Shown here in pieces: positions 40,193 through 64,000 of a stretch of 64,000 bases of DNA. Each line of letters starts with the position of its first letter. Position 1 is the first letter of the stretch. The position numbers were made by a program, and so were the translations under genes. The notes under the pieces were generated by a model, which ran no database searches, had not been told where the DNA came from, and saw nothing but the letters and a program-made list of their open reading frames with translations. Source of the DNA: Isoetes taiwanensis (taxonomy: Eukaryota; Streptophyta; Lycopodiopsida; Isoetales; Isoetaceae); NCBI GenBank assembly GCA_021234155.1, contig JAJEKV010000169.1:162000-225999 (forward strand). The letters are read 5' to 3'.

Positions 40193-42465
40193 CGATCAAG
40201 GCCACCTAGCCTAGCCTTTCCTTGTAATTATAACCTTTCCTGTCCCCCTTGTTGCTTTCTCCTGTGCTTTCTCCAATCATTAATGGCTCCGGCTGAAAAT
40301 TCAAAAAAGGAAAAAATATCGCTGCAAAAGCCCTAAAAATTAGTTTCATCTCCTTTCTGCATCAGTTTATGCTCCTGCCTCCCAGTGATCGAGCCGATCT
40401 TCTATCTCAGTTAAGTAAATTCCATAATCAACCCTCCTCCTTTATAAAATTTGGAGATTTCTCTAATCTTGATCTCAATAAAAAAGGGATGTATCATCTT
40501 GATCGATCCACTCCGATTTGGATAACCTATGCAAAGATCCTAGCTACAATGGTGACCCAGTGCTTGATGCAAATGGAGTGCCTATTCAAAATGGACCACA
40601 GAGGCCTGTTGTGGAAATCTTCACAGACCAAGAGCTCGCCAACAATTTAGATCAACTGAAAGCTTTGGCACCTCCCTCTGTTCACCTGTTCAAAGGTATC
40701 AAGCTACACTCTCTTGTGATTGCCACTAGAATTCAAACTTTACAAAATACTGCTGTATTGGTTAGGGTTGATAAGGTGGGGCTTAAGATTGAAAGGATGT
40801 GGGATAAACTTCTAAAACTCCACAAAGGAGTGGTTATAAATTCAATCTTTTGGTTAAACTTCCCATATATTATGATCGAATGTCTAGAACTGCCAATTTT
40901 TTTCTCAAAACGGCTCGCCTTTCTGTGACACTTTCCAACTTTATTTCTTAAAATGGTGTCCCAACCTCCCTCTGCAAGATTTTGAGAAATTATGCATTGC
41001 CTCAGTTCCAATGAGTGATCTCAGCCCAATTGACTGGCATGAGGAATGTTTCTCAAGCATATTTAATTCCATTGTATCATGCATTGCAACTGAATATTCT
41101 CCATACAAACCTCCTAAATGTGACTTTTCTAAGCCAATCCCAACCTCCCTTCCTTTCATTGACTTCTTTGGATCTAAAGCTACTTTATATTTAAGATGGA
41201 TTGGTCTACCAATTTTTTGCCATAAATGCAATTCAAGGCATTTTTCTTGCTTTAACTGCTTGACCACTCCAGCTACATCTGAAATTCAAGGAATGGAAAA
41301 GGAAGTTAATTCTGATGATCTTCATCAAAAGAATTCAAATCAGCATGCTAAAAAATACAGTGCTTAAAGAGAATCAGAATATGCAAAAAAGAGAATCTTG
41401 GGATAATAATGGCAGTTACAGAAGAATTCAAAAGAAGAAGAAGATGGCTACAGAGAAAAATGATATAAAGGATGGCCTACCACTCCTGCAAAGTCAACCC
41501 TCAGAATGTTCTTTCCTGGTAGAGCCTACTGTCATAGTAATTGTTTTGAACAAAGGCAACGTGGCTACAGTCAACAAAATTACAGCAAATAAGGAGAAAA
41601 TCCAACTGCAAGCAGGCAATCAACTGAATGTAGATTCTCAAAGGCCTTGCAGAATGGATCAGAATAGAAAACTATTAAAAGGGAAAGCACCAATAGCTCT
41701 CAATACCATTGATGTACACAAAACCCTCAATAGTATTCTAAACACCAGTAAAGATAATTATTTGTAGAATATGGCAGGTATGAAGCATAACAAACGAATT
41801 GTTATACACACAGTTCATAAACCTCCTGCAGAAGACACATTGAAGCAAAATGGAAAATATGACTTCAATGACAAGAATTTATCCAAAACAACAGCTTCAA
41901 GGATTGAGATTCCATTAATTAATGATTTGAAAAGTTCAGAAGGAAGCATGGATACTGATATGCCAGCTGCCTTACAAATGTATAAGTCTTCTGGAGTTCT
42001 CACTCCTCTAGAAAAAGTTCTACCTTCAGCACCAAATCAAGATATTCACATCAGCACGTCCACAAACAGTCTCCCAAAGGTTATCTGTTCTAATAGTTTT
42101 AATATTCTCACTGACTTATCTAAGGAATTTTGTGCAGACACAATGGAGCCAACTGCCTCTATCCCCGCTTCCCTTATTTCTCCTAAAACAATTATCAATC
42201 ATACCTCTGACCTCATTGACCTTTCCCCTGAATTTAATAGCCAACCACCAATCCCAGATAAATTTGGTGGCTTATCCCCAGGCATTGCAATTCAGATTGC
42301 TGAGCTTCAAAAAGAGCTTAATCTAACAGATATGGCCATCCAAGTTTCAGAGGACAGATTTGATAATATGGATCTTATTAACTCAGGGCAGAAGGATCTT
42401 TCAAAAGAAAAAGATGATATCAACAAAGGAAAAATAAATAATCCAGTAATAGTTAAAGGCTCAGC
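40193..42465 (+). mobile_element. LINE ORF1 fragment (DUF4283/zinc-knuckle type), no ORF2
   Basis: A chain of plus-strand frames with stops and shifts looks like ORF1 of a plant LINE. A 5' UTR-like region (40193-40380) precedes an RNA-binding-like part with VLVRVDKVGLKIERMWDKL (about 40755-40815) and WIGLPIFCHKC. A Cys-rich knuckle (CHKCNSRHFSCFNC, near 41216-41260) follows, then a long Ser/Thr/Asn-rich tail to about 42460. No endonuclease or reverse transcriptase follows: the sequence changes abruptly into the duplicated GH25 3' end at about 42466. Confidence 0.6.
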
Positions 42466-42840
42466 TACTATACCTTCTGGCAATATGCATATAGTGGCAA
42501 GTTTCCTGGTGATCAAAATGTTTTTAACGGTGCCTACACGCAACTACAAAAACTTGCCAAAGGTCCTTAGGAATTCGAGTTTGAGGAAATATCAATCATG
42601 TGCATTTGTTGTGAATGCCTAGAGAATATGAATAAGAATAAGAATAAGAATAAAGTTTTTATCGTCCACAGACATATTCAAAAGCATACTAATCAATGAT
42701 TGGCAAACGACAAGAGTTAATTATTATCTAGACGTAATTGCATCACCCCCCGATTACTTAAGATTATTTGGGGGGGGAGGGTGGGGAGATGGGTGTTTCA
42801 TTACGTAATTTTTGGGCTCCACTCTTTGGCAGCGATCTGG
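42466..42840 (+). repeat. Duplicated block B: GH25 3'-end copy (pseudogene fragment)
   Basis: Repeats the GH25 C-terminal codons from ACTATACCTTCTGGCAATA through the stop, AATAAA signal and 3' flank to about 42840. It carries only the final part of the gene. The frame open through the junction from the LINE side is not the GH25 frame, so no fusion protein with a GH25 tail is encoded. A GAATAA microsatellite here is one unit longer. Confidence 0.9.
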
Positions 42841-44221
42841 CGGCGCCGCCAACAAATTTTTTTCTCTGTTCTACGATTTGGGGCAGCCCTCAACAGAGTA
42901 GTTTCTCTGTTCTATAACACGATTTAGAGCAGCGATGGCGGGCTCGCCCCATTGCACTATTTCTTGTGCCCTCGGAAGAATCACCAACAGGTGAAGAGCC
43001 AACAGGTGAGGAGCGATGGCATAAGGATTTCTCAAATATATTTGATAGCCAGAAACGGCTCTGCATAAGGAGCTTCTTAGATGCCAGAGCCATAGGATCT
43101 TCGAGTTTTCTAGACGCCATAGCCACAGGAAACCCTTTCCATTTGCTTTTCACAAGAAAAACATAGATTTAGCCATATAAAATCTTTCTGGTTGGATTTT
43201 TCGTAAGAAAAACACAGATTTGCAGCGGCTTCAATGGATTTTCAGGCTGGAGCGACGGGTTTGCAGAGATTTGAGGTAATCGGGATGTGATGAAGGCCAC
43301 ATATGGAAACCTATGCCAGTATAAGTTTTTTGGAGGAAACCTGGGGGCGCTGCTGCCAGGTTTCTTCCAGAAACCTTCTGTTGGTATGGGTTCCCTTATA
43401 CATTTATAATTGATTTTGTTATTTTTGTCTTCCTTTTTCATACAACTACATGCACCTCCCCTCCACCCCCCCAAAACATCCTTTTGGAAGGTCTGTTCTG
43501 ACCTCTGTAGGTAGTGGCATGAGCTTGGCAATGCCAAGGTTTTTTCAAAATAAGTTTTTAGTTTTTTCCCCTCTTTTTTTAAATTACATATTGAGGATGA
43601 CTGTGATAATGAATTCACATCAATGGTAGAGCTAATATGAGTGGGGTAAAATAGGTTCATGAATGATATTTTTAAATTCTTTCTTGTGGCCAATAAAACC
43701 AAAAGGCCGATAAAGCCAGAAAGACTTTATTCTTTATTTTTTTTATGTGGACCTTGATTTCAAGGTCCGTTTTTTGCAAGCGCATGGGACAAGTTTTTCT
43801 AGCCCGGCATTTGGACATGCGTGTGTCGCATGCGCTTTCAACACAACGCATGCACATGCAACACATTGAGCGATATGTTTCTTTGGCAAAACTTAGCATA
43901 AACGTGTTTGTTTTGACACGCTTATGATATTGGATTTCCATAGTGCTTGGGCCTTCGCTCTAGTTGTAGTAGACTAGTATTAGAACATCTATATCTGGAG
44001 TTCAATATTATCTAGAGTCGCACTATGTGTAGTTCTATGTCATAGTATCTATTTGTTTAAATTTGGGCATAAGCATGTTACAGTGTACCTTAAAAAGTAT
44101 AATTTATAGACTATAAAACTAACCTAAAAAAGGTTACCTAATACTAGGCACTGGGCACTTATATGATGCCTCAATAACTGATGAGTGTTAAATTAGATTC
44201 GTTCATTTTCAAAGTACTATC
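42841..44221. other. Intergenic, contains a long hairpin
   Basis: No gene supported. It includes a near-repeat (TTTCTCTGTTCTA at about 42860 and 42901), the palindrome TGGCGGCGCCGCCA near 42838-42851, and the 99-base hairpin at 43301-43399. Confidence 0.4.
43301..43399 (+). ncRNA. Candidate long RNA hairpin (miRNA-precursor-like or foldback)
   Basis: Arms 43301-43344 and 43356-43399 pair around an 11-base loop. In the inner 35 pairs the plus-strand RNA has only two true mismatches; six other differences are G:U wobbles. Pairing continues outward with a few mismatches. Excess G:U on one strand hints that plus-strand RNA pairing may have been kept, but an old inverted repeat that accumulated C-to-T changes would look the same. 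No known miRNA was recognised. Confidence 0.35.
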
Positions 44222-47200
44222 TGTGACGCTCCCTGCTAAATATACGGCGCCCGGCCCTACACTCCGCAAGAAATCCCCCATCCGGTCACTCGACCGCACG
44301 GGCCCTCCGTCTATCCCGCACTTTGAGATGACTCTAGTGCGGGAAGGGGACACTGAAGGTGTCTTGCGTGCCCTTCCCCTATGGGCTCCTATCACAGCGG
44401 AAGCATAAACAACGTCAGAACTAGCAATAATAATACATCATACTATCTCGAAGGGTAGCTCATCCACATATCCATATCTGCAAAGAAGATAATCATATGC
44501 CATAAAACATAAGAGCTCCTACCCGTGGCTCCGACTCATAGGGAGGTTGACTGACTGGATAGGTCTCAAGATAGAGCATACCGAGTCATAACAATGGCGG
44601 GGCTGGCTATAGACAATGGCTAGGGTTGACCACTCCATCCGCCCCTCCTGTGCATACTTTGCAGAATGAGCTAGATCGGGCTCTGGCGTGACTCTAGCCT
44701 TCCGGATACGCAATTCCATGGCATCACCCATCCGGACTACTCCAGGTTGCATCTCCCCGGTCCGATGAGGCAGGAAGGGTTGCATCTCCCCTTTCCAGGG
44801 TCTAGAGGTCCCACGGGCGGTTAGAGAATCATGGCGACACACGATTCATACCCGACTTAACCCCCCAAAACAGGAGCCAAGCCGGCACTTGCAACTCCTG
44901 AGAGGCAGGGCGACACCATTGCCCCAGGAGGGGTCGGACCCATGCCCGGCCCACACAAAGTGACCAGCCATAAGCCTAGCCCACTATGGGATCCCCAGTA
45001 GCCACGCTCAGCAGGGATCCCCCATCCGTATTGCCTCTAGCCCCGTTATGTAGTGCTGAGTCACATCATAGCCCCAATAGCCCAGTGGGCTTTTATGCAC
45101 AGGCCGCAACTAATAGGAACTAAGGGGTCTAAACTAGGAGCATACTACATATGGCCCTAGGTCTCTACCCCCCCTTCCCAATACAAGAGGAGCAAACATG
45201 ATCAACCAACATCACATAACATCATATCATGATAATCATAATAAGAACATCTTAACCTAATCATACATATCTAACTTACAGTTAGGGTTCCTTGATTAGG
45301 GTTCAAGATGTTGAATAAGGGTTCTAGGATGGCTCTACTCTAGATACGAAATACTAACCAATCTGGAGTGCTAACTTCCAGATGATCTACCAAGAACACT
45401 ACTCTACATACCTGCTCCAGAAGCACTCCCTCCCAATCCTGGCGTCTCCATGGTCTTCGAATTGGTCGAAGCTGCACTTGCTCCAAGATCGAATCCACAC
45501 TCCGAGGGCTGCTGCACTAGCCTATGCCTGTTGCCTTTCACAGAATCCTTGCAAAAACTGTGATGCACAAATCTCTAAATTGTGGGATTTCCTAAAAGAT
45601 ACTTGCCAAATTCTGTGTTTAGGGGGCAGAGAGCCAAAGGTGTGGTGAGGGGATGAGAAAAGATGAGAAAAGAGGTGCAAATGTGAGGAAATAAGGTGAT
45701 ATGTGAATGCAGGTGTATGACTGGGATGTTTTCTGTAACAGAGTAGTGGAAATGATTGAAGAAAAAACTTTGGGATGTAGCCAAACTTCCTTTGAATGCA
45801 AATGAAATATTTGAGCAAATTCTGGCAGAATAGCTATTTGTTTAGCTAAATCTAGATAATATCAGATAACTTGAATTGATTTCAACTCATTTGTTGATCA
45901 AGATTGATGGGAAATTCGTGGCAAAGTTCGCCAGAAGTGGACTGGCACATAAAAAATGGGAAAACCCTAATTTTTTGAAAAAAACTCAGAAATCGATTGA
46001 AGAAAGGGGAAACACCTATGAATTGCTCAAGAAAACTTTTCTCAGATTATCTTAGGAACATAATACACTGTCAGGTAATCCATTTGATCACTCTGAAATA
46101 GAATTTGTATCAGAACTTCAGAAATCTTGGCTTTCAAAAACAAGGGCGGGTTTCTGATCAAAAATCTCCTCTCCTGCTATGGAATACGGCTCGGATCATC
46201 TTTATAGACCTGTGTCAGGGTAGTTAGAGCTCCAATTTGTCTGCATATGGCCACGAACTCTTCTTTCCCAAAAATAGGCAATATTCTGTTCTTGGCATGG
46301 TCTCCATTAATTCGGCATCCTCTTCATGATTCGATTGGTTCCAGAGGTCGATTATGATCAGGCAAAGCTTTCTCGCATCACTCAAAGTCTTGTGGGAAGC
46401 CGAGAATCATAGAACCCTAATGGATCTTGGCGGATTTTCTTCGATGGATATATCCCACAGGCCTAAATCAAAAAAAGTCACTTCGTATATATAGCTCGAT
46501 CCACGAAACTCTTAAATTGACGTGTTTTGCCCACGGGATTCGGTACCTCCACCGCCCCGCCCCACACGTGAGCCACGTGGAGGGGGGTGATTGGCTGAAA
46601 AGGAATCTAGGTCAGGGGGGGTGGTAGAATAGGACAATTTTATTGGAATTCAAGGGTCTATATAAGGTCTTTTTTGGAAATTTTTTGTGCCAGGTGGCAT
46701 ATTTTCATTGGGGCAACCTGGTGAGGTGGTCAAATTTTGGAAAATGGCACTTTGATTTTTTGGCTAAAAAAGGTGAATCAATGGTGACTGGACATGATGA
46801 AATGATGACTTGGCATAATGAAGGATGGCTTTTGCCTAAGTGGATTTTCGAAAATTTTAAATGCCCCTTGATATTTTTGATGAGGTGGCATGATTTTGAC
46901 CCAAGTGGCAAAGATATAACCAAAGTTGGATGACAAAGCATTTTTGTGAGCAAGGTGGCCATCCTAGGTGGCATTTTGACTCTTGATGACGTGGCAAGGG
47001 TATTTTTTGGAAAGTGTGCCTTTTGACTTTCTATTTTGACTTTCACTTGACTTTTTGACATCTTTGGCACTTTTGGATGATGACTAGGATGCCACTTGGC
47101 AAAGGTATAGATTTTTTGGCATTTTGGGATTTTTAGGCATCTTTAGAAGCATATTTGGCTAGCGATAGGGGAAATTCAAGGAGAAATGGGAGATAGGCTC

Positions 47201-47720
47201 AAAAATTTTGGGAAAAATCAAGGATGGCTAATTTTGGCTAAAGGATTTGGCAGGGGTACTCACCTGGCCTAGATTCTCTTTCAGCCTGATACCTTTCCTT
47301 AATAGCTCCTCCAATACTTAGAATTTTCTTCATATCTTCATTTCTTCTTCATGTTGCCACTTCAAGGGGCAACAATGCCACAACAAACAGTGCTCGAAAC
47401 GGAGTTTCGAGTGCGTAGATGAGTCTCAGTGTGCTAGGGTCAGGAAAAGAGGTCTAGGGTTAGGGGTTGTGCTAATATAAGATAGGGTCCACATGGGATT
47501 CCACGTGGCACCAATGGGGTGGGGCCGTGTGGCGGTTGCCCAATAGGATAAGGCCATGTGGAAATGGGCCTTATCCTAAGGTTATCTAAGTTAAGCATTT
47601 AACTTAGATGTGCACCCATTGCCACTTCCTAAGGTATACAAGGCCTACAAGGGTAGACTTGTATAGTGACGGGTCCAGGAATGTACGTATTTATGGCGTA
47701 TATTCCCTTGGAATGTCACA
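44222..47720 (-). repeat. 3' LTR, about 3.5 kb
   Basis: Sense start TGTGACATTCC at 47720, next to a polypurine tract, and sense end GGGAGCGTCACA at 44222, giving TGTGAC/GTCACA inverted ends. A fragment of the same sequence on the opposite strand at 25600-26883 ends at the matching point (GGGAGCATCACA), supporting that border. No ORF of note inside. The 5' LTR needed for full proof is outside the window. Confidence 0.6.
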
Positions 47721-47734
47721 TTCTTCCCCCCTTA
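47721..47734 (-). promoter_or_regulatory. Polypurine tract of copy 2
   Basis: Sense TAAGGGGGGAAGAA immediately before the LTR start TGTGACATTCC, the position of the plus-strand primer in LTR retrotransposons. Confidence 0.7.
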
Positions 47735-48578: not shown

Positions 48579-51500
48579 CTAGTCGGCGTCGACGAGCTCG
48601 GAGACGACTCGCCCATCAAACTCCTTCATGAAATCTGGGTATTGTTTCTCCAAATCCTGCTTCAATACCCATGTCGCGTCTGCCACGGGCAAGTGTTTCC
48701 ACTTGACCAAATACTGGAGGAACTGAGACCTCCTAGTCTTCTTGAATGACTTATCAAGAAGCAATTCAGGCACAATTTCAACTTGCTCTTCTATCATTTC
48801 CAACAAAGTTGGAGTATCCAAAACCTCCTCAGGGTTTGGGTTGTGCCTTTTCAATAAGCTCACATGGAAGACCTTGTGGACCTTAAGGTGCGCCGGAAGA
48901 TCCAACTTGTAGGCCTGAGAGCCCACTTTCTCCAAGATCTTGAACGGACCGCCCCATCTACGGGCGAGCTTCTTACAATTCCCAATACGAAGCTTAGCTT
49001 GCTTCACCTTGATCTTCAACCATACCTTATCGCCCACCGTGAGCTCCCTTACGGTCCTGTGCCTGTCGGCTACATCTTCTGCCGACTTCTTGCTGCTAGA
49101 AGGTACCACCTTACTTCTTCAACCAACTGCTGCATCTCTCCTAGCATTTGCTGGGATACTTCGACCTTTGACACAGGATTGTGCCAAGTATCCGGGGTGA
49201 GGCACTGGTACCCGTAGTTGATCATGAAGGGAGACATCTGCGATGACTCCTGCTTCGTACTGTTGAAGGCGAATTCTACCAAGTGGATGAAATCATCCCA
49301 CTTGGATTGCTTATTCCATACATAACTTCTGAGCATATCTTCGATGATGCGATTCGTCCGCTCCGTCTGGCCATCCGTCTGAGGATGGTAAGCCGTGCTC
49401 ATCGAGAGCTTGGTCTGGATCATGGCGAAAAGATCCTGCCAGAATGCACTCATGAATTTAGAATCGCTATCTGAGATTATCTCTCGAGGCATGCCGTGGA
49501 ATCTAAAAATCTCCTTTACAAATAGAACGGCAGTATCTAAGGCTGTGTCCGTAGTTTTGCAAGGCACGAAGTGTGCCATCTTAGATAATTTATCTACGAC
49601 CACCATTATTGCATCTTTGCATCGAAGAGTTCTAGGAAGCCCTGTAATAAAATCCATGCTTCTTACTTCCCACTTTGCACTGCCAAAGGTTCCAAGGCTC
49701 CCGGAATTCGAAGTTGCTCTGTCTTGGTCTGCTGGCACAACTGCATTCCCGAATATATCTGGCTATCTGTTTCTTCATTCCTGGCCAAAAATAGCTACTT
49801 CGAATCTTAAAATACGTCTTCATAAATCCTGCGTGCCCGGCTATTGGGCTGTTGTGTGTGTCATGAAGAATTAACTTCCTTACTGCTGACGATTCGGGCA
49901 CACACAACTTATCTTTATGGTACAACAGGTTGCCTTCCTTCTTATAATGTTTGAAGGCTTCCCGCTCCTTATCTGTTCTAGCCTCCTTAGAGAGGCTTGC
50001 CCATACCTCCTTGAAATCACCATCAGACGGCAATGTCTCCTCAATCTTCTTACCAAACTCACTCGAAAGAGTTGATACAGCATTACAATGCATTTTCGTC
50101 TCGAATGGTCTTCTAAAGAGGGCATCTGCAATCACATTAAACTTGCTGGGCTTATACACTATGTCAAAATCATATTCCTCAAGGAATTCCATCCACCTCC
50201 TTTGCCTTAGGTTGAGGAGTGGTTGGGCGAAAAGATATTGAAGGTTCTGGTGATCAGTATCTAACTGAAACTTCCTCCCCAGCAAATAATGCCTCCAAAT
50301 CCTTAGTGCCCTGACAATGGCTAACAACTCATGCATCGCTCATCTTCTTCAAGTCGTAGGTGACTACCCTTCCTTCTTGCATCAAAACTGCACCTGTTGC
50401 TATCTTGCTCGCATCCGTGGCCACTAGCTTATCTTTGCTCGGATCTGGAAGGACGAGGACTGGAACTGTCGTTAGAGCCTCTTTGAGCTTTTCAAAGGAG
50501 GCTTGGACATTCTCAAGCCAAAACTTTGCCCAATCCTTTATCTTATTGCTCTTGGTGAGGTCCGATAAGGGGGACGCCCACTTAGCGAAGTCCTTTACAA
50601 ACTTCCTATAGTATCCTGCCAGATCGAGAAAACTTCTCACTTTTGCCACGTTCCTTGGAGCTGGTCAATCAACTATTACCTCAATCTTTGACGGATCTGT
50701 AGAAATCCCTTCAGCTGTTACCACGTGCCCTAAATACTCCACTCGATCTGTTGCAAAGTGGCATTTGGAGAGCTTCCCATACAACCGATGCCGTCTCAAC
50801 TTCTCCAACACTCTTCTCAAATGCTGACAATGCTCTTCAATGGATTTGTTGTAGATTAAGATGTCACCAAAGAACACAATGACAAACTCGTCCAAGAACT
50901 CCCTGAAGATGTCGTTCATGAGACGCATGAAAGTTGCCGGGGCCATTCGATAAGCCAAAAGGCATTACTGTAAACTCAAAATGCCCGTACCGCGTTCTGA
51001 AGGCGGTCTTATGGATATCTTCTTCCTTTATTCTTATTTGGTGGTAACCTGACCTTAAGTCAATCTTAGAGAAAACTTTCGCTCCTTGGAGCTGATCCAT
51101 CAAATCATCTGCCCTTGGCAGAGCATACGTATTCTTTATCGTCTGCTTGTTGAGCTTGCGATAGTTTATACACATTCTTAGGCTCCCGTCTTTCTTCTTG
51201 ACGAAGAGTATGGGTGCCCCAAAGGGAGACACACTTGCTCTTATAAATCCAAGGTCAAGCAATTCCTGCAACTGCTGCTTGAGCTCTATCAACTCTGGGG
51301 TGCTCATTCTGTAGGGTGCATCTAGAGCTAATGTAATTTCGCACTCTACACCTCTATAAGGTGGTAGCTGACGAATTTCATCCGGAAATACATCATTGAA
51401 CTCCCTAATGAGCCTTGCTACTGGCTTGGGCAACTGATTTCCACTTAGGTCACTTCCCTTCTCTTTACTTGGTTCAATTGCATCTAACTCAGGATATAAT

Positions 51501-52132
51501 CCACCTTATTTCTTTCTATACTCTTTCTTAGTTGCTTCATAGAAATGCACTGCATAGGAAAGCTACCTTCTTACCTTTTACTATGAATCTGTTGCCATCC
51601 GGCGCCGTCATGGAGATCTTGTTGCGCTCACAATCAATCATCACTTTAGCTGGCTTGAGGAACTCCATTCCTACTATCAGATCATACTTTCCAATATCCA
51701 TGACTTCTGCCCCATCGGCCACTTGCTTCCACTAAGGTCTATGTCGAACGTGATCCTCCTCCCCTTAGTGTGCCGAATGGCACCACTTGCCATGCTAACT
51801 GGTCTTGGCTTTGACTTCAAGACCTTGCTCTTCATTAGGGTAGGAGAGGCAAAGTTATAAGAGCTACATGTATCTATCAAGACTAGGTATGGACTGCTAT
51901 CTATAATTCCCTCGGTCGAGATGACTGTGAACTGATTTTCAACATCACCTGACTCAATAGCTGCGCAGATTTTGCACTCACCTTCTATAAAATCTTTGCC
52001 CTCCTGCTGGTCGTCATCTTCATCATCACCTTCGGTTGGAGATTCCCAATCTGCAAGTTCTGCCAAGGCTGCCTGCATGACGAATGGACAGTTGTGTGTT
52101 CTGTGCCCTGGCTGGAAGCACCTAAAGCACAA
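48579..52132 (-). pseudogene. pol with C-terminal chromodomain, copy 2 (broken)
   Basis: In sense order: gag zinc knuckle CFRCFQPGHRTHNC (near 52120) leading into an aspartic protease whose active site reads DTCSS instead of DTGSS (near 51870). Reverse transcriptase spans 51433-50665 ([26 protein letters not shown]; the catalytic box reads FFGDILIYN, so one of the two essential Asp is lost). RNase H spans about 50640-50100 (TDASKIATGAVL, DHQNLQYLF, IADAL). Integrase has an HHCC remnant near 49870-49760, then MDFITGLPR and HPQTDGQTERTNR (49680-49340). The chromodomain spans about 48870-48600 (LQYLVKWKHLP, ATWVLKQDL). Frame breaks near 50335, 49700 and 49090. Confidence 0.88.
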
Positions 52133-52960
52133 CTTCTTCTCAATGCACTCATGTCTCTTCTCCTTAGGGATGTTGTCTAAAAGACGCTTGAGCGAACTGC
52201 CCCCTGATCCATCCTGTGGCCTACGGTCTCCAAAGTGCTTTCCCTGAGCTTTCCCTTGTTGTTGCCTCCAGCTGGCGTGTTTGCTGCTTGCTTATTCTGG
52301 TACTGCCCTGTTGCTTTACCCTTGAACGGTAACTGCTTCTGCCCTGGAGTTACTGGGGCGTCTTCCAAACTTAAGGCCTTGTCTTCGGCCTCCCCGACTG
52401 TTCTTGGGTTAATTGCTCGAACTAACCTTTTGATGTTACTGTTGAGCCCTTCAATATAACCTTCGACCGCTTGCCTCTCTGTGATCCTGGGCACATTGAG
52501 CCTTAGCCTCATAAATTCCTATGTGTACTTGGCTACTGATAGGTTCCCCTGGTCTAGCCTGTAGAATTGCTGAATCTGCCTGCTAGTGTGCGATCTGGGT
52601 ACGTAATGTTTGCGGAAAGCCTTACTGAAAGTCTTGAATCTGCAGTTGTTCCATCTCAACTTATTAGACTTAGCATACCCTTTCCACCATATCCTGGCTG
52701 CCCCTATTAGATTGGCTGTTGCAACCTTGCCTATGTCCTTGTCTTTCATGCCATAGGAATTGCCAAATTCCTCCATCTCATCAAGCCAAGCCTCCACTTT
52801 CTTCCATGCATCGACTGTCTTTTACATGCATCGAAACTCATCCAAGCTTCTTCGCCTTCCAAACATTACTCATCTTTGCTCCTCTTTCTCTTCTTGTCCG
52901 TCCACTTTCTTCTGATAATCATCAACACCTTGCTTTCTTGTTCTTTTTCCTACCACATGT
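52133..52960 (-). pseudogene. gag, copy 2 (broken)
   Basis: Capsid-like gag with GNSYGMKDKDIGKVATANL, ARIWWKGYAK, FRKHYVPRSH and ITERQAVEGYIEGL, parallel to copy 1 (GKSYGMTEKDIDKVATTNL). It leads into the CCHC knuckle. The start codon is not clear; the region upstream is T/A-rich and shifted. Frame breaks near 52515 and 52180. Confidence 0.75.
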
Positions 52961-53648: not shown

Positions 53649-55196
53649 TCAGTAAAAATTGAAAATGTTCATCTTCGATGCCCCTTCATCGATTTGAAGA
53701 AGTTCTTGACATCCCTGAGGCGTAGTCCTTTGCCGACGTTCCGCAAGATATTCCTGGAAGATCCCCCTTCGAGTGCTCGAGCCATTTGGGGTGCAGGGAG
53801 TTCTGGTGCCGTTGCCGCTACTACCGTTAAATGTTGCATCCCTGAGGTGGCCCCTGGTGAAGTCGAGGCAGTGAAGTGCCACGGATCTCTTAAAGAGGAT
53901 GATATGATCCATTCCGTGGTCTAGTCTGGCGTGCTGCCCGAAGCCAGAGAGTGCTATGAGGAGCGCCACCGACTCTTCTCCTCGTGGACTGAACTCCTTG
54001 TGAAAAAACTATCATCTGCCCTTGGCTGAGGACTGGAGATAGTACCGGAGTGCCTTACCCTTCCCTATGACTTTCGAACCTGTGCCCCTTCTGTTAGCTG
54101 CTTCGCCATAGGCATCTAATGCCAAGAGGTCTTCATGGTCCCTCCACATGGTAGTTGCGCTCTCCAGGTTGATGCTACTGGATGCCTCCCGCATACTCCT
54201 GGAACGAACTGTTCAGCTAGAGCTTGGGCCTCTTCCTGGTTTGTACAATCTGCTTTGTATTTGTTGAAACTCCTCCTCTGGGATGATTGATTCCTGTTGT
54301 CGATAGATCTCCCTTATCTGCTCATAGGCTGCTATATCTGACATTGTCTCCCCAGTGTAAGAGTGTCGCTCTGCTAGCTCCCTTGGGATTTCCTGATAGG
54401 AATAGTCAATGAAGTCGTTGTGCTGCTCCTTTGCCATCAAGCCTAAGAGCTTGTCGATTCTCAGCCCTTCTTCTTGGCAGTAAGGAAGGTTGAGGATGTC
54501 GTTTGCCAAGATGTACTCCTCTCCATCGATGACTATTGGTGATAGTGCTGTGATGCCAATTGGTGGCTCGTAGGCTCGCCTGATTTCATCATCATGCCTG
54601 GCTATGTGCCTCTCGATCCTCATCGCCCCTCTGCTTTCCCAACCTGGGTTTTCTTCCCCTAGTTGCTCGTAGTCTTGCTCAATTTGTAGTGTTGGTGTCC
54701 CTGATGTCATGCCATGGAACATGTTCTCCGAGGACTCGATCTCGTGAATGGGGCTCTGCTCCCTTCGAGTGTCGAGTGGCGCTAAGTCCAAAGGCTGAAT
54801 TGAGGGCTCCCCCACCTTGTTGATTGCCTTATACTGCATGAATAGAGCGAGGGTTGCATGGGCTGAGAGATATCTATGCCTATTATGCTTGCAGGTCATG
54901 TAGTCGGGCATGGTTCTAGTCCTATCCCACAGCTTGTTCTTGCCCTTGGCTCCTCCCCCTATGGCTTGGCTAAGCAAATCTAGGGATACCCATTTCCCTC
55001 CCCTAGGCGGCAAGCTAACTTCCCAGGGTAGGATCTGCTGATCATATTGGCAAATGATGTCAGTGTAGAAGGGGGTTCTGGTCAATGTTGCATGAAGATC
55101 AAACAGATGGTCGAATACATGGAAGGCCTGTTCAGCAGGAAAATCATGGATGTGGTTGGCAGCATCATACCATCTAACAAAGCTACTGGGCGCCAT
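53649..55196 (-). pseudogene. Unknown pre-gag ORF, about 500 codons, copy 2
   Basis: Open from the ATG at 55196 for 327 codons to a TGA at 54213. The same frame continues with MREASSSINLE to a stop near 54012, after which a shifted frame runs to 53649. Copy 1 aligns straight across the TGA, with a sense codon there, so the original protein was probably about 500 residues. It is rich in charged and aromatic residues, with no signal peptide or membrane segment. Landmarks: RWYDAANHI near the start, WVSLDLLSQAIG, HRYLSAHATLALFMQY and EEYILANDILNLPY. I recognise no known domain. An RNA- or chromatin-binding role would be speculation. Confidence 0.6.
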
Positions 55197-55984
55197 TGAG
55201 CAGAGGTAGGTGTAGAAAATGGCTTGGAAAGATTGATGAGAGGTTGGAAAATTGCCTAAAATGACAAGAGCAGTTTTGGTAAAAGAAAAATGAAAATGAG
55301 ACCCCTTTTATAGACTATGGTCTGCCTCGGGTTTTGTGAACAAGGGTTCTTGATGGAAGAGACTTTTGTTCTAAGGCTATGGATATCCAATTGAGCTACC
55401 ATGAAGTGCAAATCTAAGCAAAACAAAGTAAGAAATAGTACATGGCAGTTTGTTGGGTCAAATTTGGTCAATCCAGGCCAAAAAGGGTCAACCCGGGTCG
55501 GTTCGCGCAAATAGGCTCTGCGTTGCGAACGCAAGGCGATTTTGCGCGGACCCACCCGGTTTGACTGATTTGGGAGATGATTAGTCATTTCTAGGGGTTA
55601 TAAGATGCTAACATGCCTATTTGGGTGGATTCTAATCTAGCTAGCAACTTGTTTCAAGCAAAATTGATATCTAGAGGTGTCAAATTGGGCTAATCGGATG
55701 GGTTTTGCAAATAGGCCCTGCGTCGCGAACGCAGACGCATTTTGCGCGGACTGACCCGGTTTCACCCCTTTTTGAGCCAAAATCGATTTCTTTGTGCTGG
55801 GACCTATGGCATTTAATCTATTACAAGCATTTTTAAGCTTTATACAAAACATTATACTACAATCTAACTTACTTAATTACATTTTCATATTATGACACGA
55901 TCAAATTACAGAGAAAAGAACTTATATATATAAAAGAAAGTCAAGTACATGGAAATTTTTTATCTAATTACAAAATTTGAGGCC
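55197..55984 (-). other. Spacer between H3-like ORF and unknown ORF, with a duplicated stem-loop motif
   Basis: Non-coding spacer of about 790 bases; copy 1 has only about 290. It contains two related segments, near 55485-55575 and 55690-55780. Each has CAAATAGGC(C/T)CTGCGT and TTTTGCGCGGAC around a small inverted repeat (TGCGTT-GCG-AACGCA in the first, CTGCGT-CGCGA-ACGCAG in the second). Confidence 0.5.
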
Positions 55985-56790
55985 TCAGGGTCTCTCTTTG
56001 CGGATCCTCCATGCCAAATGCAGGTCTTTGGGCATAACAGTTACCCGCTTGGCGTGAATTGCACAAAGATTCCCCTCCTCGAAGAGCTGAATCAGCTCCG
56101 CCTCTGCTGCCTCCTGCAGGGCCCGGGTGGTTAGGAGCATGACCCTATAGTTCGTCCGGAACTCCTGCATTACTTCACGAAGAAGGCGTTCGAATGGCGC
56201 CTTCCTTATTAGGAGATTAGTACACTGTTGAAAGTGCCTAATCTCCCTAAATACCCAAGCATGCCGGGAGTTAGGCCCGTGGTGGGTCTTCTTCGGCTTC
56301 TCCGGCCTGGGTGGCGCCCTGGTTCTTCGGCCGCCCTCCCTTCACAAACTTCTCCACGTTCTGCTTGCAGTACCAATCATTATACCCCGTCCAGCGACGG
56401 AGGTACTCCTGGTACACCTTCATTCTGCGCTTGAACTCCCGATCCGGGCGGAGGGCGAATGCGCGCTCGCCCACCTTCTATTTCTTCACTACCTTAGGTG
56501 GTTTGGGCCACTTGGGGTAGGGTGGGCATGCATTGGGGTCTGAAGGTTCCCCATCTTCCACTTCCTCTTCCTCCTTCTGGCTCTCCTCCTCCTCGAGTTG
56601 GCGAGGTTCTTCGATAGTCACGGTTCCCCGTGGCTTGTCCCTCCTCGCCTTCTTCCTCCTCTCCTTCTCCTTTTGCTCCCTTTCCCTTTTCTTTCTGGCT
56701 GCCGTCTCGTCCGGCCACTTCGTCACCTTCTCCTTCCCCTTCTTCTTTTTGCTTGAAGAAGGGCTGCTACTAGTCTAGCTGCTGGCGAGT
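55985..56790 (-). pseudogene. Pre-gag protein with C-terminal histone H3-like domain, copy 2
   Basis: About 268 codons remain. N-terminal part: lysine-rich KKKKGKEKVTKWPDETAARK, a long basic/acidic region (QKEKERRKKARR, EEEE runs), then PPYPKWPKPPK. One TAG at 56490-56488 and one frameshift near 56270 interrupt it. The last roughly 100 codons form a histone fold. Helix 1 has [20 protein letters not shown] then [10 protein letters not shown], helix 2 [20 protein letters not shown] then AIHAKR, and helix 3 [19 protein letters not shown], ending at TGA 55985. Histone H3 has the same order ([50 protein letters not shown]). The canonical ARTKQTARKS tail is absent and loop 1 lacks the CENH3-type insertion. 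The true N-terminus is lost to the insertion at 56791. Confidence 0.8.
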
Positions 56791-57375
56791 CTGTTGTTCT
56801 TTGTGTTTGGGGTGCGGGTTGGGAACTCTGGAAGACAGACCCTCTGTGAGACCACTGATCTAACAGGAGAGTCAGGGGGACTATGTCCTTGTGGATTTGC
56901 AAGAAGAAAGAAAAGCAGAACAAATGAGAGAAGAATGATAAGCTTCCTTGATATCAATAATGAACATACATGAGCTCTGTAATAGAGAAAAGCGAAAAGG
57001 AGACAAGACTCAAAACTCATCTAAAACTCATGTGCTAGCTCTACTCATATATATAGTACAATGGCCTTGGGCCCCAATATACACACTTCCGATCTAGGTC
57101 TTGTGCCGACTCTCGGAAGGAGGCTGATTCGAGGAATGTTGGCGGTGCCTCTTGAAGTGCCTAGAATCCTGCTGGTGGCCTTGTGAGGCGATGTGGTCGT
57201 CACTTGTCCGGCGGCGCCTCTTGTTCATTCCGCGAGGCTTTTGATCGTGATGGTCTTGCTTGGTCTTCTTCCCGGAGCCTTTGATGGCTGACCCGTGGCT
57301 GCCGGGATCCTTGAGCTTGACCAGTGCATGGGTTATGCATGAATAGTCCTGTACCGGGAGGCCACGGGACTAACA
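56791..57375 (-). repeat. 3' LTR of the Tat/Athila-like element (585 bp)
   Basis: Sense start TGTTAGTCCC at 57375, directly after the polypurine tract TTTGGTGGGGAG, and sense end AAAGAACAACA at 56791. A TATATATA promoter-like stretch lies near 57046-57056. The right border is well supported by the purine tract; the left is inferred from the TGTT/AACA ends. Confidence 0.65.
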
Positions 57376-57387
57376 CTCCCCACCAAA

Positions 57388-60300
57388 CGACACTCAGAGT
57401 GAAGAAAGGAGGAAGTGTTTACGGAGGGCGGGAAGCCATCTGGAAAGTGATCCTCACGGGGAGTGAGGGCACCATTATGGTATGTCTGGCTAATGAGATC
57501 TGGCGTGTTTGAAGAAGCGGGGAGGAGTGTTTTGGCCAGGGGCGGATCGGCATCAATAAAGCGAGGCGTACCATGTCTTCAAAGGGCGGCATGGGGCCTT
57601 GAAGAAATGTCTTGACATTCCATGAGGAGCGGTCACGGAGGCCAAAGGCGACAGCATTGCGTTGGGATTGAAAAATGGGGACGGCTGCCGATTTAAGGAG
57701 CTTAGCAAAATGCATTTGAGAGCAACACAAAATCACAGCTTGAAGATGGGTGAAGGATCCGGTGAGGTGGTGGCATTCAGAAAGGTGTCAAGACCATGAA
57801 AGCGCATCCGCCCGGCCGTTGCCAACCACGCCATTAGCAATGTAGATCCAATTCGTGGTGGTGTCGAGTGGCACCTTCTTCCCAATGTGGCCCGAACAAA
57901 GCGTGGATCCCAGGAGATCCATCCGAGATCCGAGGTGGAGTCCATCCGGCATGACCATCCATGACCTTGGTCCAAAAAGGAAGGTGCCAATCGGAAGTCA
58001 GGAACCCACGGGGCGTGGAGATGCGCCCGGCATAAGCATAGGAGAAGGAACCATGCCCGTGGGTGGGTTCTTGGCGGTCTCCACGAATTGGTGACAAGAT
58101 CCGGATCAAAGAGCTTGACACCAGCGATCCCAAAGAAAGCGAGAGTTGAGAGTTGGCGGAGGGCTATCCCCATCCCGGTGGTACCGTCTTGCTATCCAGC
58201 GAGCTTCGTAATTGATTGTATCCCGTATCGAGGTCTTTGCATATAAATTTGTGCATAGGGAAGATCCTCGGGGATGTCTAGATACTTCCTTATCATTCGC
58301 GGCGCTAAAACACTTGCGAGAGAGATAAATGATTGGCAAGCTTCGGGCATGTACTCGATGAAGAGTTTGGGTCGGCGGGATCCAAAAGATATGGATTGTT
58401 ATCCCGAAGCACCCATTGCCGCGGTGGGGTCACCACGAAAAAAGCTGGCGTGGCCCATTTCGAAGTGTTCACCCGTGTATCACCCGGATAGAAATCATGA
58501 AATATGTAAGCCATGGGCTGAACAACTCTGAAGGTGATAAAGTCCGGATCAACCACGGTGTATGAGATCAAAGACCACAAGGGCACAGCACAACCCTTTG
58601 TCTTCAATGGAGAGTTACGGCCAAATCCAAGAAAATCACCTTTGCTTTCGAGGGGAATATCCACGAGGTCCATCGCCGCCATGCCACCGAAAAGGAAGAG
58701 GTGGCGGCGAGCAACCACATAATCGTGATAGCGGGGAAGGAAGGCGGGAAGTCAAAAGGCATTCGTGAAGAAGAATGGCGGTATGGCCGTCAAGTTTGGC
58801 AAAGCCTCATCGCCAGGCCCGAATAACTTCTTTAGGCGTTGTTCAAGATCCGTATCCGGTTGTCCCGTTCTAGCGGCGTGGCCCAGTCCGGTCACCCGTT
58901 CCGCGAGAAGTGTTGACACGGGAGGAGGATTTCCCCGGAGTATTGAAGGCGAAACCGCGGCAATCTCCGCGTCATCCGGTATCTTCTCTTTACGCACCTC
59001 GTAGGCGATCTTGAAGAGAGGTGATCGAGAGGTTTGTGTAGAAAGGCGAAGGCCGTCAAGGAGGCAACTTAGCGTCCGTCTTGAAGGTTTTGAACTTGAG
59101 TGCTGAAATTTTCACAAAGTTCGGTACAAAGGCGTTGAGCTTAGCAATATCTGCGTCATTGGTACTTTCGGGGAAGCGGCTTTGGACTTGTTGTGCTCCA
59201 ATAAATTCTGAATTTCGATTGGGCTGAGCTGTTGATCTACCAAGTTGGTGACTTGAGCTTGTGCACTTTTGAGATCTGCATGAGCACAGTAAGAGAGCCG
59301 TGCTTGTCTTGAAGTTTGGCCTCAAAGTTGCAACTTGGGCGATTTGCGACTTGAAAGGTCTGGTGTCTGCCATCGAGAGCCTCTAGTGCAGTTGAACCCG
59401 CTCATAAGAGCGTCTTGGGATTCTTCTAACTTGAGAGCAGCGGCTTGAGCATCCTGGCGATTGATACAACAAGCCCGGCGAGGGTGTTGTGGTGGTGGAA
59501 GCATTTGTTGCACGGTTTGTGATGTTTGGGAAAGATGGTGTGGCCCCGGATGGTGTAGCGGAGGAGGAGGCAATGACATAGGTGTCAGGACTTTGGACAT
59601 GACCCGGGGGAGGCGGGCGTGAAGTGCCGGCTTGGTGAGTTATGGAAGGGCCGAGGTGGAATTATATGAGAATTTTGAGGTGTGGGAGGAAGTAATGTGG
59701 ATGAGGGGCTTGAAAGTGGCCTCCCCCACGAAACTTCAGAATGGAAGTGGCACCCCAGAAGGCGGTCCATTTCTTGGAGAAACGATAGAACATCATTTGG
59801 GGCCAATCTATGTGGTGGTTGGAGTGTGTACTTGGGTGAGGACCAGGTTATAGAAAGGCTTATTGATATGGGTGTTCTTGATAGAATACCCAAGGAACTT
59901 TGCCACATAAATTTAACAAAAGGTTTACGTGAGGCTTGTCGATATTGGTCGGGCGATGGACATTGGCATGATAGCGAGTGCACAAACTCGCGTGACATCG
60001 AGATCTGTATGGCGACCATGATAAACAAGGGGTGTGTAAGGGAATATGAAATACCTCAGAAATCAAATGTTGAGTCGTGGCGAAATGGTGATGCCATATC
60101 GACCCTACGATGGTGTAGCCTTACTTGCCGTTAACGATATTGGCGATGAACCGCTGCGTCAACCGGGTCGATTTGGGCCGGAAAGTTCCATTTGAGAGAA
60201 CTAAAGCTTGTGCCGTTCAGCGACTTCTTTTATTTGGGCCAACAAGGGCTTCCGGGAAAGTGAAGTAAGAAGGATCTGGTCAAAAAGAGCGGATCCTTGG

Positions 60301-61300
60301 GAAGAGTAGCTTGAAGTGTAGAAAAATCTTGGGGCAGTTTTGGTAGCGATTTGCGAGAATGAAGGAGTGATTCAAAAAGCCGAGGGATCTAAAAAGTCGA
60401 GCCATTGGAGGACAAAGGCGCTATAAGAACGAAAGGTTTTTTTAGGGCGCATTAACCGAGGGCGAAGAGGTATGAAGAGGGCTAAACCATGTCGTTGATG
60501 GTGCAGTGTCGCAAAGATGCCAAGAAGTGTATTGAGAGGCAAAATTTGGCTAAGTCCCAAAAAGCGTAAAGGAGAAGCAATGAGCGGTGAGGATGGGACG
60601 CGTGAAAAAGAAGGATCGGAGGTGACGGTTGGGCAAAGGACACACATTAATGTTCGGCCAGTGAAAAGAAGAATTGCATTCAATGCGCAACTTCGAGAGT
60701 GGGATATCTATTCGGAATGTGGCCGAAAGGTACCATGGGCTAGATATCTTGCGGGAGAAAATTCTCATTTAAGAAAAACTTGTTGCATTGCAAAACACGT
60801 TGGCAATTTGTGCGGGATTGGTCCACGTCGACAAGAGTTCCCTCGATTGGCTATATAAAAGGCACCGGGAGTAACGGCATCCGATGGCGCGGCATAGTTT
60901 CTTTATGGTTTGAGCGAGGACTATGCCCTATGCCCGTCAGGAGTGGATTACCGGCAAGATGAATTATGCGGATCTACGCCGCCACAACCCGTGGCATTCA
61001 ATGGATGGTGTGTGCGGGGATGGCTGAACATCCCGGCGAAGACCAACAGGATGGAGGTGGTTTCTTCCTTCCTTTGGGATCTGGCCAGAACCTCTACCAT
61101 CTCCTCGCATCACCTCTGCTCCGAACCCGGGGTAGAGGGTTTTCTTAGGACTTAGTAGATAGGGCTCTCGGCCGTTTTTGTATAGAAGGGCAGTGCCCAT
61201 AGCGGAAATAATTTGGAGTTGCGCCCACATTTTGTAAAAAATATGCGCCTTTCTAGTCACTTTTACTGGGTGTTTGCGTCTTGAGCTGTATACGTTTGTT
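57388..61300 (-). pseudogene. Region downstream of integrase with a decayed extra ORF
   Basis: About 3.9 kb between integrase and LTR. On the minus strand, broken frames at about 59100-58300 form a protein-like stretch (LAERVTGLGHAARTGQPDTD, VARRHLFLFGGMAAMDLVDI, FRVVQPMAYIFHDFYPGD). A Pro/Ser/His-rich and coiled-coil-like part lies at 60030-59060 (LPPPPLHHPGPHHL, QDAQAAALKLEESQDAL). Athila-type elements carry an extra ORF after pol, so an element-encoded protein is plausible. I cannot assign a family. The plus-strand frames here look like shadows. Confidence 0.4.
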
Positions 61301-62670
61301 GATTTTCCCATTTATGCGTGTGATGAAATGTTTTGAGGCGAAAACCATTAACCAATGTAGGTAATGGAGTGCCATCTAACTCACTGCCGGTTGGAAGCAG
61401 CTTGGTCTAACCACTTGAACAATTTGATAAGGGCCAAATAGCGAAACTTGAGAGTTTACGGGAAAATTTTTGTACACGGAATCATAAAGAAGAACCGTCG
61501 CCTTCTTTGAATGTTTTTTGTCTTGGGGCGTTTGTCATGTAAAGATTTTTGCAAGCTGTTGTCCATGAAGAAGAACACGAATATAAGCATCCCTTCGAAG
61601 TTCATCAAACTGTTCTAATTGATAGACCCTTTCTTTGAGTCGCGGCCGGGTGGATTATGAAGCGTGCCGATTTAAGCCAGTGTTGGAAGGATGTATTCAA
61701 GCGGCATGAGAGCTTCCCGACCATAAACCAATTTAAAAGTGTGACCGGTAGCAATCTTGAAACAAGTATTGTAGGCCCAAAGAGCGGTAGGAAGTTTTGT
61801 ACGCCAATAAATGCGGGGGCGTCACAAATTTTCTTGAGAATGGTGACCCGAGTTTTGTTGGTGCTTTTCACATGAAACCATTACCTTGAGGATAGTAAGG
61901 TGTGCTCTTGTGATGATGTATCGGGGAGATAATCCGTCCCGGCTCCTTGATAGTATGAAGGATGAAATGAACACCACGGTCCTTTGACCAGCTCTCATTA
62001 GAGGCGGCCGAATCAGCGTGATAATTTGTTGATAGAGGACTCTAGGCGTACTTGCTTTGCGGTGTTATGCGGAAGTGCACAAGCTTCCGCCCATTTGGTG
62101 GCGTGGTCGGTGAAACCGGTATGTATCGAACGCGGGTGTGCGGCGGGAGAGATCTATAGGTCCCACAAAGTCCATTCCCCATTTGTGAAGGGAAGTGGCG
62201 TGGCGGCCGGCGTCAAAGGAAAGAGCGTCCGCGGGCGTGGGAGCCCCAATCCCGTGGCAAAGCGTCCACGCGTCTTGGCGTGATGGCGTGAGCATCTTTG
62301 AAGAGCGTGGCCAATAATACCCGCGAGAAGGATTTTGCGTCGTGGTGGTGTCACCATGAAAATGACCACCACCTAGCCCTTGATGAGCTTCTCGAACAAT
62401 ATCACGGAACTTCATGAGGGTAGAACCACGGCGTCGAAGGATGGTGTCCTTACCTTTTGTAGGGATGTCCCCGCAACCATGGTGTAGTCCGCGGACCTCT
62501 CTGGAGAAATTGATAAGCGGCAGGATTATGTAAGGAAGGCGTCGTCTTACGGGGAAGAGCACACGTGAGGAGAATGCTGGCTGAAAATCATGGAACCAAT
62601 GTGGTGTTGCCGTTACTAAAAAGAGCTGAGCATCGGGGAAAGGCGTCACGAGACTCCGGTTGAGGATCAT
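61301..62670 (-). pseudogene. Integrase of the Tat/Athila-like element (broken)
   Basis: In sense order: zinc-binding remnant with GGGHFHGD, GYYWP and a broken Cys pair (near 62370-62270), the core start WGMDFVGPIDL (near 62165), then C-terminal motifs LVYGREAIMPLEY (61730-61690), ELRRDAYIRVLLHGQQLAK (61610-61540) and a GPYQIVQVV-type end near 61430. Frameshifts throughout. Confidence 0.65.
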
Positions 62671-64000
62671 GTGTGGATGCGTGAAAAGATAATCCAGGAC
62701 TACATGAGATTTGCGGCCTTATGAGCGATTTCAAAAAAACAGCAATTCTTGAAGAAGAAAAGGACCCAACGAGCAATGCGGCCCGTGGTGGACTTGTTGA
62801 TCAAATAGAGGAGTGCTTGGTGGTCCACAAAGAACTTGATTTGGCTGCCCAAAAGGTAATGGCGAGGCGTTGGACCGCGATGAAAATGAGACCCAAAGCT
62901 TCCGCGCTCGTCTTGAGGAAATAGTTCGCTTCAGCCGGTGAGTTTTACCGGTGGCGTAGCGATTTGGTGTGTCGGTTAGTCGCATCATATTCTTGAGAAA
63001 AACGGCTCAATAGCAAGCGCAAAGAGACATCTACATGAACATGAAAGGGCTTGTCCCATTGAGGAGGAACAAGAACCGGTGCACGAGTAAAGCAAAAGCT
63101 TCATTTGTTGGAAAGCAAAGCACCGGGAATTCCAAGCCGGGTGGATTAAGTCACCGTGAGTTTATGAATGGGATGCGCAATGGCCGCTAGTCCAGGTATG
63201 AAGGTGGGAGTAATAATTGACCTTACCCAGGGAAAGAAGCGTGTCTCCTTGATATTGGGGGGTGCTTGAGCCTTGAGCACCTGGCGATTTTGGCCGGGAT
63301 GCAGCTTTGATACGCGACAACATGGCCCCTGACGAGAACACGGGGGTGGCCTTAAAGGTGCATTTCGGAGGATTGAGACTAATCTGGGACTCATCACATT
63401 TACGGAAGGCGAGTTCCAATTTATCCAAATGGTCAGCCATGGGCTGTAGGCCGAGTCATCTTGAAAAATTTGCAGAAGGGATTTTCCTTCATGAAATCAT
63501 GAAAAACGAGAGCATGATGCGTTGAAGCGTGGATGGAGAGTTTGATAATCCAAAAGGAACCACCTTGTAGGCAAAAGTGCCCCCCGGTGGTGAAAGTAGT
63601 CTTGAGTTGATCGATTCTTTTGATTGAGATCTGATTGTAGCCCGAAAAACCATCCATGAAGGAGTACATCTCATGTCCGGCCACCTCTTCGAACCCGGTG
63701 CGTGAAGGGAAGTGGAAAAAATGATCACGCTTCAAGTAGCTTTGAGAGTTTCGATAGTCCACCTGAGGAGGCGGATCTTACCATTGTGTTTAAGGACCAA
63801 TGGCGATGGGGCTCACCCATTGAATGTTTGACCTCATAGATCAAACTGCGGCAAGGTTTGTCAATTTCGCCTTGGCGATCCGCGGTGGAGTAGGGTTGAG
63901 CACATGCTTGTCGTTGCTACAGCGGTGTGCATTTGATTTGGTAGGAATGGTGGTTCCCCAAGCTTTGTTGATTCCCGAAGGTCTTTGTAACTCGGTGAAA
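62671..64000 (-). pseudogene. Reverse transcriptase / RNase H of the Tat/Athila-like element (broken, runs off the edge)
   Basis: RT motifs in sense order: WVSPIAIGP near 63820, VDYRNSQSYLKRDHF (63765-63720), EMYSFMDGFSGYNQISI (63675-63625), FAYKVVPFGLSNSPSTLQR (63580-63525), then KLELAFRKC and SLNPPKCTF in the connection region (63425-63350). RNase H follows to about 62700 in badly shifted frames. Motif wording is that of non-chromovirus Tat/Athila elements. Confidence 0.75.

Follow-up and report, generated by a model that had tools for sequence, protein, structure and literature searches.

Does a retrotransposon of Isoetes taiwanensis encode a histone of its own, or does a stray histone sequence merely lie next to a mobile element? 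Histone-based silencing is normally directed against retrotransposons, some of which read chromatin via chromodomains. The question was raised by a stretch of 64,000 nucleotides of the I. taiwanensis genome (in the following referred to as the window), for which the original prediction had proposed a histone H3 fold on the same strand as, and upstream of, a Ty3/gypsy gag-pol with a chromodomain. In the reading direction of the element, the following features were identified:

56803 to 57375, minus strand: LTR-like piece of another element, with a TGTTAG start and a PPT-like GGTGGGGAG before it
56274 to 56774, minus strand: insert region of the element's ORF1, K/E-rich and followed by the conserved block PPYPKWP..WTGYNDWYC, read in a frame different from that of the fold
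55985 to 56341, minus strand: histone H3 fold, the C-terminal part of ORF1, 118 open codons plus stop
55507 to 55765, minus strand: pair of short direct repeats in the spacer that separates ORF1 from ORF B
54213 to 55196, minus strand: ORF B, an orphan of 327 aa in this copy
52519 to 52821, minus strand: gag capsid core (Retrotrans_gag, 9.4e-11)
48582 to 51505, minus strand: pol remnants comprising RT, RNase H, integrase, SH3_Tf2-1 and chromodomain (PF00385, 6.7e-11)
44221 to 47731, minus strand: 3' LTR of this copy, interrupted at about 45528-47374

The presence of an H3 fold was clearly confirmed. The open frame (56341-55988, stop at 55987-55985, minus strand) matched the Pfam family Histone (PF00125; E 5.1e-28) and histone H3 in a PDB search (E 3.7e-31); H3 was the best match of the histone fold, which is complete at the C-terminal end of the 118 residues. 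Its predicted position also held, with gag at 52797-52519 and the integrase and chromodomain at 49762-48582 downstream on the same strand. The proposal that fold and N-terminal region form a single ORF did not hold: the insert region is split by an in-frame stop at 56480 into 56774-56481 and 56477-56274 (minus strand), and a frameshift near 56.3 kb lies between its frame and that of the fold. With the upstream basic/acidic part in another frame and the in-frame stop, the H3 copy of the window is thus a pseudogene. Homology to the element stops at about 56763, and a relative of the adjoining LTR-like piece (79% identical) opens an insertion between ORF1 and ORF B at another locus of the genome, L031. 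The window copy therefore lacks an H3 tail, as its 5' end is cut at this foreign piece. By eye, 58000-64000 (minus strand) holds another gypsy-like element with an RNase H match (3.3e-4), which is perhaps the source of the piece. Owing to the piece, we also considered that H3 may be a downstream ORF of that element, a reading rejected since the piece is foreign and other copies have LTRs of their own.

Neither an LTR pair, a PBS nor a 5' LTR of the H3-bearing element was seen within the 64-kb window. The 3' LTR is 84-92% identical to the LTRs of other copies. The element is a repeated Ty3/gypsy chromovirus, present here as a broken copy, the rest of which may sit beyond the window. Elsewhere in the window, a gene for a GH25 lysozyme, which is unusual in plants, is located at 39261-39836 (plus strand; Pfam 2e-50); a stretch of 324 bases from its 3' end onward (39789-40112) is repeated 2.7 kb away at 42463-42780 with 90% identity.

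The published assembly of I. taiwanensis is described as 1658.30 Mb in 204 scaffolds and 909 contigs, with Gypsy elements accounting for 10.7% (PMC8566536). The whole genome (1,658,258,908 bases in 1110 contigs) was searched with the H3 domain and the gag core of the window copy, which yielded 9310 and 9931 first-look candidates, respectively, numbers that do not represent verified copy numbers. The best 150 of each, ranked by similarity to the window copy, were scored. The H3 matches among them showed 80-100% identity (100% for the window copy, 80-93% for the rest) at E values of 4.6e-56 or below, and many were located in open frames of 350-430 aa. The H3 sequence of the window is not a chance match, given the thousands of first-look candidates and 150 scored copies in the same genome.

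Ten of the 150 H3 loci, picked for their long open frames, were fetched. ORF B followed H3 on the same strand in all ten (in L031 in the next piece, past an insertion), and the pair of repeats between ORF1 and ORF B occurred in eight, the exceptions being L038 and L040. A gag match was present downstream in the same piece in six loci and in the next piece in L031 and, at 62%, in L038; the fetched pieces of L034 and L040 had none. LTR pairs enclosed the H3 ORF in five of the ten, with H3 positioned after the 5' LTR and before gag-pol or what remains of it (pair identities 97.9% in L039, 97.3% in L036, 92.1% in L037, 88-91% in the split pair of L033 and 83.9% in L040); no LTR pair was found in the pieces compared for the other five. 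In the three pairs examined, the LTRs start with TGTGACG and finish with CGTCACA. The PBS TGGTATCAGAGC after the 5' LTR and the PPT AAGGGGGGGAGAA before the 3' LTR were found in all three elements examined, and exact 5-bp target duplications (GCCTG, ACCCG and TCTTG) in three of three. LTRs, PBS, PPT and 5-bp duplications, together with the order gag, PR, RT, RH and INT with a C-terminal chromodomain (Pfam and tblastn), identify the carrier as a Ty3/gypsy chromovirus.

Crossing the two lists of the best 150 matches resulted in 23 H3/gag pairs within 15 kb, compared to 0.4 expected by random placement. H3 was upstream of gag on the same strand in 22 of these, one pair being on opposite strands, and 19 of the 22, the window copy included, were spaced by 2.2-3.8 kb. 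The other 127 gag matches had no partner within 15 kb among the best 150 H3 matches; as the H3 list ends there, they count neither for nor against a neighbouring H3. The LTR pairs, the target duplications and the near-constant spacing to gag rule out a processed H3 pseudogene that arose independently next to a gypsy element. The H3 gene is the first ORF of complete elements, located between 5' LTR/PBS and gag-pol, so that the original proposal of a histone carried inside the element is sustained by the LTR pairs in five of ten fetched loci and the exact duplications in all three examined.

The product of ORF B is 327 aa long in the window and about 507 aa in L036. It showed no Pfam family above the cut-off, no NCBIfam relative, no credible PDB match and no relative in viral_contigs, and the fold prediction reached a pLDDT of 35. 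A protein search with ORF B and the ORF1 insert returned 1150 candidates, none at E <= 1.

The window contains a second H3-like element, represented by the following features:

37654 to 38045, minus strand: second, degenerate H3-like sequence, frameshifted and with one stop
36895 to 37354, minus strand: possible remnant of ORF B, following the second H3, found by pairwise comparison and weak when taken alone
28712 to 32492, minus strand: gag-pol of the second element, in the same order and on the same strand, with a decayed chromodomain

The second H3-like sequence was recognized in two frames by Pfam (5e-15 and 0.01) and by a local HMM (1.4e-31 and 6.7e-12). The possible ORF B remnant reached a pairwise score of 53 against 36+-5 for shuffled sequences, a weak signal, the best of 200 shuffles scoring 57. 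Further downstream, 25902-26545 is 66-74% identical to the lineage-1 LTR and is perhaps the 3' LTR region of this element. Another locus of the genome, L049, holds an element of a second lineage, which combines H3 in a 257-aa frame (Pfam 4e-39) with a 508-aa ORF and a gag that is 65% identical to that of lineage 1. The gag-pol of the second window copy shows 67-72% identity to that of L049 and 66-69% to that of lineage 1; the H3 of this copy shares 86% identity with that of L049, over 57 bases only. The ORF Bs of L049 and of lineage 1 are homologous (BLASTP 4e-9, 26% over 108 aa). Given this homology and the shared gene order, the arrangement H3, ORF B, gag-pol probably predates the split of the two lineages.

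Seven uninterrupted ORF1s of 372-384 aa revealed the organization of the intact protein. It starts with MARTKQTARK or a variant thereof (MARTKCTMKN in L040), followed by an S/E/K-rich insert, a conserved block (PPYPKWPKPPKVVKKQKVGER...WTRYNDWYC) and the H3 fold, which is joined at about the equivalent of K36-K37; thus, 260-270 other residues are placed between tail start and fold. The original prediction had a new region standing instead of the H3 tail. This has to be revised: at a cut-off score of at least 25 of 48 (the best of 190 shuffles scored 26), 33 of 38 copies have a recognizable tail start, 30 of them scoring 37 or more and three 27-29, and the new region separates tail from fold. 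The other five copies, in which no such start was recognized, are L001 (the window copy), L011, L027, L030 and L034. Residues 1-6, 8 and 9 are retained in most of the 33 tail-bearing copies, with R2 and T6 present in all, K4 in 32 and R8 and K9 in 31 each. A7 is changed in 25 of the 33, S10 is lost, and H3 residues 10-35 are replaced by the insert. In L035 and L037, the MARTK tail is in a different frame from the long open rest of ORF1, which may reflect a frameshift common to both, or else a site of recoding or splicing.

Within the fold, as exemplified by copy L009, all seven H3-H3' residues and all eleven DNA contacts are kept, their roles presumably being those described in nucleosome work. 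Only one of eight positions is kept in residues 84-91, which we take to be loop 1 and the start of helix 2 as read by H3 chaperones; a K56Q change is also present. This pattern suggests that the nucleosome-building parts have been kept and the chaperone-identifying part rewritten. CENH3 has a longer loop 1 than H3. As the element H3 aligns with canonical H3 at 87 positions without a gap, it does not look like CENH3, an identity ruled out by loop-1 length. In three copies compared, the fold is 60-67% identical to rice H3, and in a tree of 35 folds, in which no CENH3 was included, the lineage-1 H3s formed one group apart (100/100). The H3 of L049 is 78% identical to rice H3, and the tree did not separate it from the canonical H3s; thus, one or two captures are possible. 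An AlphaFold model displayed four helices in H3 order at a weak pLDDT of 59.8; its only PDB match below 0.001 was an H3 chain at a TM of 0.21, which offers no independent support.

Some metagenomic proteins (P0005, P0008, P0018, P0051, P0080 and P0024) likewise carry an H3 fold that is preceded by an unusual N-terminal region. P0051 begins with MARTKQTARK and P0024 with MARTK ahead of a long insert, and P0005, P0008, P0018, P0051 and P0080 cluster in the tree (85/88). No contigs bearing these insert-type H3 proteins were found in viral_contigs and genome_contigs.

Purifying selection on the fold was indicated by dN/dS between copies, a check named along with the original prediction. Across 38 copies, four of which have a stop in the fold, the median pairwise dN/dS was 0.045 (dS 1.11, dN 0.042), with 481 of the 561 pairs of the 34 stop-free copies usable and the others saturated or too close; as the H3 loci were ordered by how closely their proteins resemble that of the window copy, and the ten fetched ones were chosen for long frames, dN is biased downwards. 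In the seven uninterrupted ORF1s, pooled pN/pS was 0.25 for the tail (12 codons), 0.37 for the insert, 0.18 for the pre-fold block and 0.066 for the fold. The corresponding values were 0.117 for the gag core (six loci) and 0.20 for ORF B (five loci), the H3 fold being the most constrained segment measured. Between the two copies of the window, pN/pS was 0.39 over 65 codons (bootstrap 0.27-0.57), and shifted-frame controls gave 0.91 and 1.28. When evolution from canonical H3 to the window fold was simulated neutrally, no stop occurred at a frequency of 0.17, equally conservative changes at 0.04 and both at 0.006, which lends modest support. The same element pairs had LTRs 80-92% identical and a fold pS of 0.59-0.83; with LTR divergence as the yardstick, the selection ratio becomes about 0.2-0.5. 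By both ratios, which are below 1, the fold is under purifying selection of uncertain strength. Among L031-L040, synonymous sites of the fold are near saturation at LTR identities of 80-92% and leader identities of 77-89%, a mismatch that may be due to homogenization of LTRs and leaders, to constraint, or to unusually fast synonymous change.

The chromovirus includes the H3-derived gene as an integral component that is under selection. What its product does is best explained, and in our view probably so, by the capture of a cellular H3 gene by a Ty3/gypsy chromovirus as its first ORF, the product of which would be an element-made variant pairing with host H4 and acting in chromatin. H4 pairing and action in chromatin are inferred from residue conservation. 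In this scenario, the ORF1 protein would enter nucleosomes as an H3 variant that is delivered by another chaperone route, in keeping with the rewritten residues 84-90. It could then change chromatin for the element, either by marking DNA near where the chromodomain integrase works or by altering silencing marks on new copies. That the H3 gene has been kept suggests that the element may tamper with the packaging of host DNA.

Alternatively, ORF1 may yield a soluble protein whose ARTKQT.RK tail occupies the writers and readers of host H3K4 and H3K9 and so relieves silencing, with the fold serving mainly for stability. The retention of K4 (32/33) and K9 (31/33) in spite of the loss of H3 residues 10-35 speaks for such a role. 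However, the fold rather than the tail is the most constrained part, the conserved DNA and H3-H3' residues would be needless for a mimic, S10 is lost, A7 is changed in 25 of 33 copies, and five of 38 copies, one being the cut window copy, are tailless. We regard this explanation as unlikely.

A more specific extension of nucleosomal incorporation involves the chromodomain of the element itself. By eye, it is group II-like, with the cage reduced to W45 and two of three cage aromatics missing (cage positions after PMC3350952), so that classical reading of H3K9me is unlikely. According to PMC3350952 (2012) and PMC6317226 (2019), no partner of group II chromodomains is known, which makes an element-made H3 a natural candidate. 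The element might thus be self-addressed: its H3 variant would be placed in chromatin, the group II chromodomain integrase would read the tail, insert or fold, and new copies would land in, or be protected by, the chromatin so marked. H3 and chromodomain, of which both elements of the window contain decayed versions, would then co-evolve as a pair. The idea is a rather doubtful one.

Instead of ever entering host nucleosomes, the protein may serve to condense the RNA or cDNA of the element, within the particle or the pre-integration complex. A K/R-rich insert, the conserved DNA-contact residues and the location of H3 beside gag as part of the element would suit such a packaging role. However, gag itself matches a zinc knuckle, if weakly, and the H3 fold requires H4, for which no H4-like Pfam match was obtained in ORF B or the scanned gag-pol parts (pol in part). 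Such packaging is also improbable, slightly more so than the tail mimic. Clearly less plausible still, and in fact very unlikely, is that a transduced H3 fragment was multiplied with the element as a functionless passenger. There is a potential precedent in Pseudocercospora fijiensis, for which H3 capture by a hAT element with hundreds of RIP-inactivated copies is described (PMC6710886); for the Isoetes element, this reading is disfavoured by purifying selection on the fold, the LTR yardstick included, and by the same arrangement in two divergent lineages. A host H3 gene or pseudogene merely beside a gypsy element could be suspected from the window alone, with neither LTR pair nor 5' LTR, but is hardly conceivable with LTR pairs and target duplications enclosing H3 elsewhere and a near-constant spacing to gag in 19 pairs.

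Virus-encoded histones occur in bracoviruses and giant viruses. Our literature search recognized no retrotransposon-encoded histone in its range of coverage, outside of which most subscription literature lies. The Isoetes element resembles plant Ty3/gypsy chromoviruses with a group II chromodomain (Tekay, Reina, Galadriel and relatives) in its TG..CA LTRs, tRNA-Met-type PBS, PPT and 5-bp target duplications as well as in gag, PR, RT, RH, INT and a chromodomain with one cage residue left, but differs in carrying two additional sense ORFs, led by H3, in the stretch from 5' LTR to gag. It shares the H3 fold and a variable N-terminal part with host H3 variants and CENH3, from which it differs by being encoded by a retrotransposon, by the lack of a loop-1 insertion and by its separation from canonical H3s (100/100). 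Extra sense ORFs at the 5' end of the element, upstream of gag, are also represented by ORF0 of Retrosat2 and ORF1 of Ogre. The abstract of the description of the rice Retrosat2 ORF0 assigns it no function (PMC3485330); the extra ORFs described for Retand elements are antisense (PMC11963269). Retention of a captured host domain among copies is likewise described for an orchid Ty3/gypsy element carrying a 2-ODD m6A demethylase, its cargo being an RNA demethylase and that of the Isoetes element a histone (PMC9289625). The hAT elements of Dothideomycete fungi also captured and multiplied histone H3, and tens of potentially active hAT-H3 copies are given for Pyrenophora tritici-repentis, in contrast to the RIP-inactivated copies of P. 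fijiensis (PMC6710886). However, the fungal carrier is a DNA transposon with TIRs (PMC6710886), whereas that of Isoetes is an LTR retrotransposon with maintained selection and a long insert. A hAT capture was rejected for the Isoetes sequences, as no transposase Pfam match occurred on either strand of the 10-kb stretches around each window copy and the carrier has LTRs. The word histone was not found in the main texts of a review on extra ORFs (PMC7264820), a review on plant gene capture (PMC13317346) and the papers on I. taiwanensis (PMC8566536) and I. sinensis (PMC10541799).

Thus, a retrotransposon of Isoetes itself supplies a histone, in which the tail start with K4 and K9 is kept and the loop presumably read by chaperones is changed; first-look candidates of its family number in the thousands. 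The element provides a natural example of an H3 variant interrupted by a very long insert as well as a testable candidate partner for group II chromodomains, and it points to a way in which new histone variants could originate from mobile elements.
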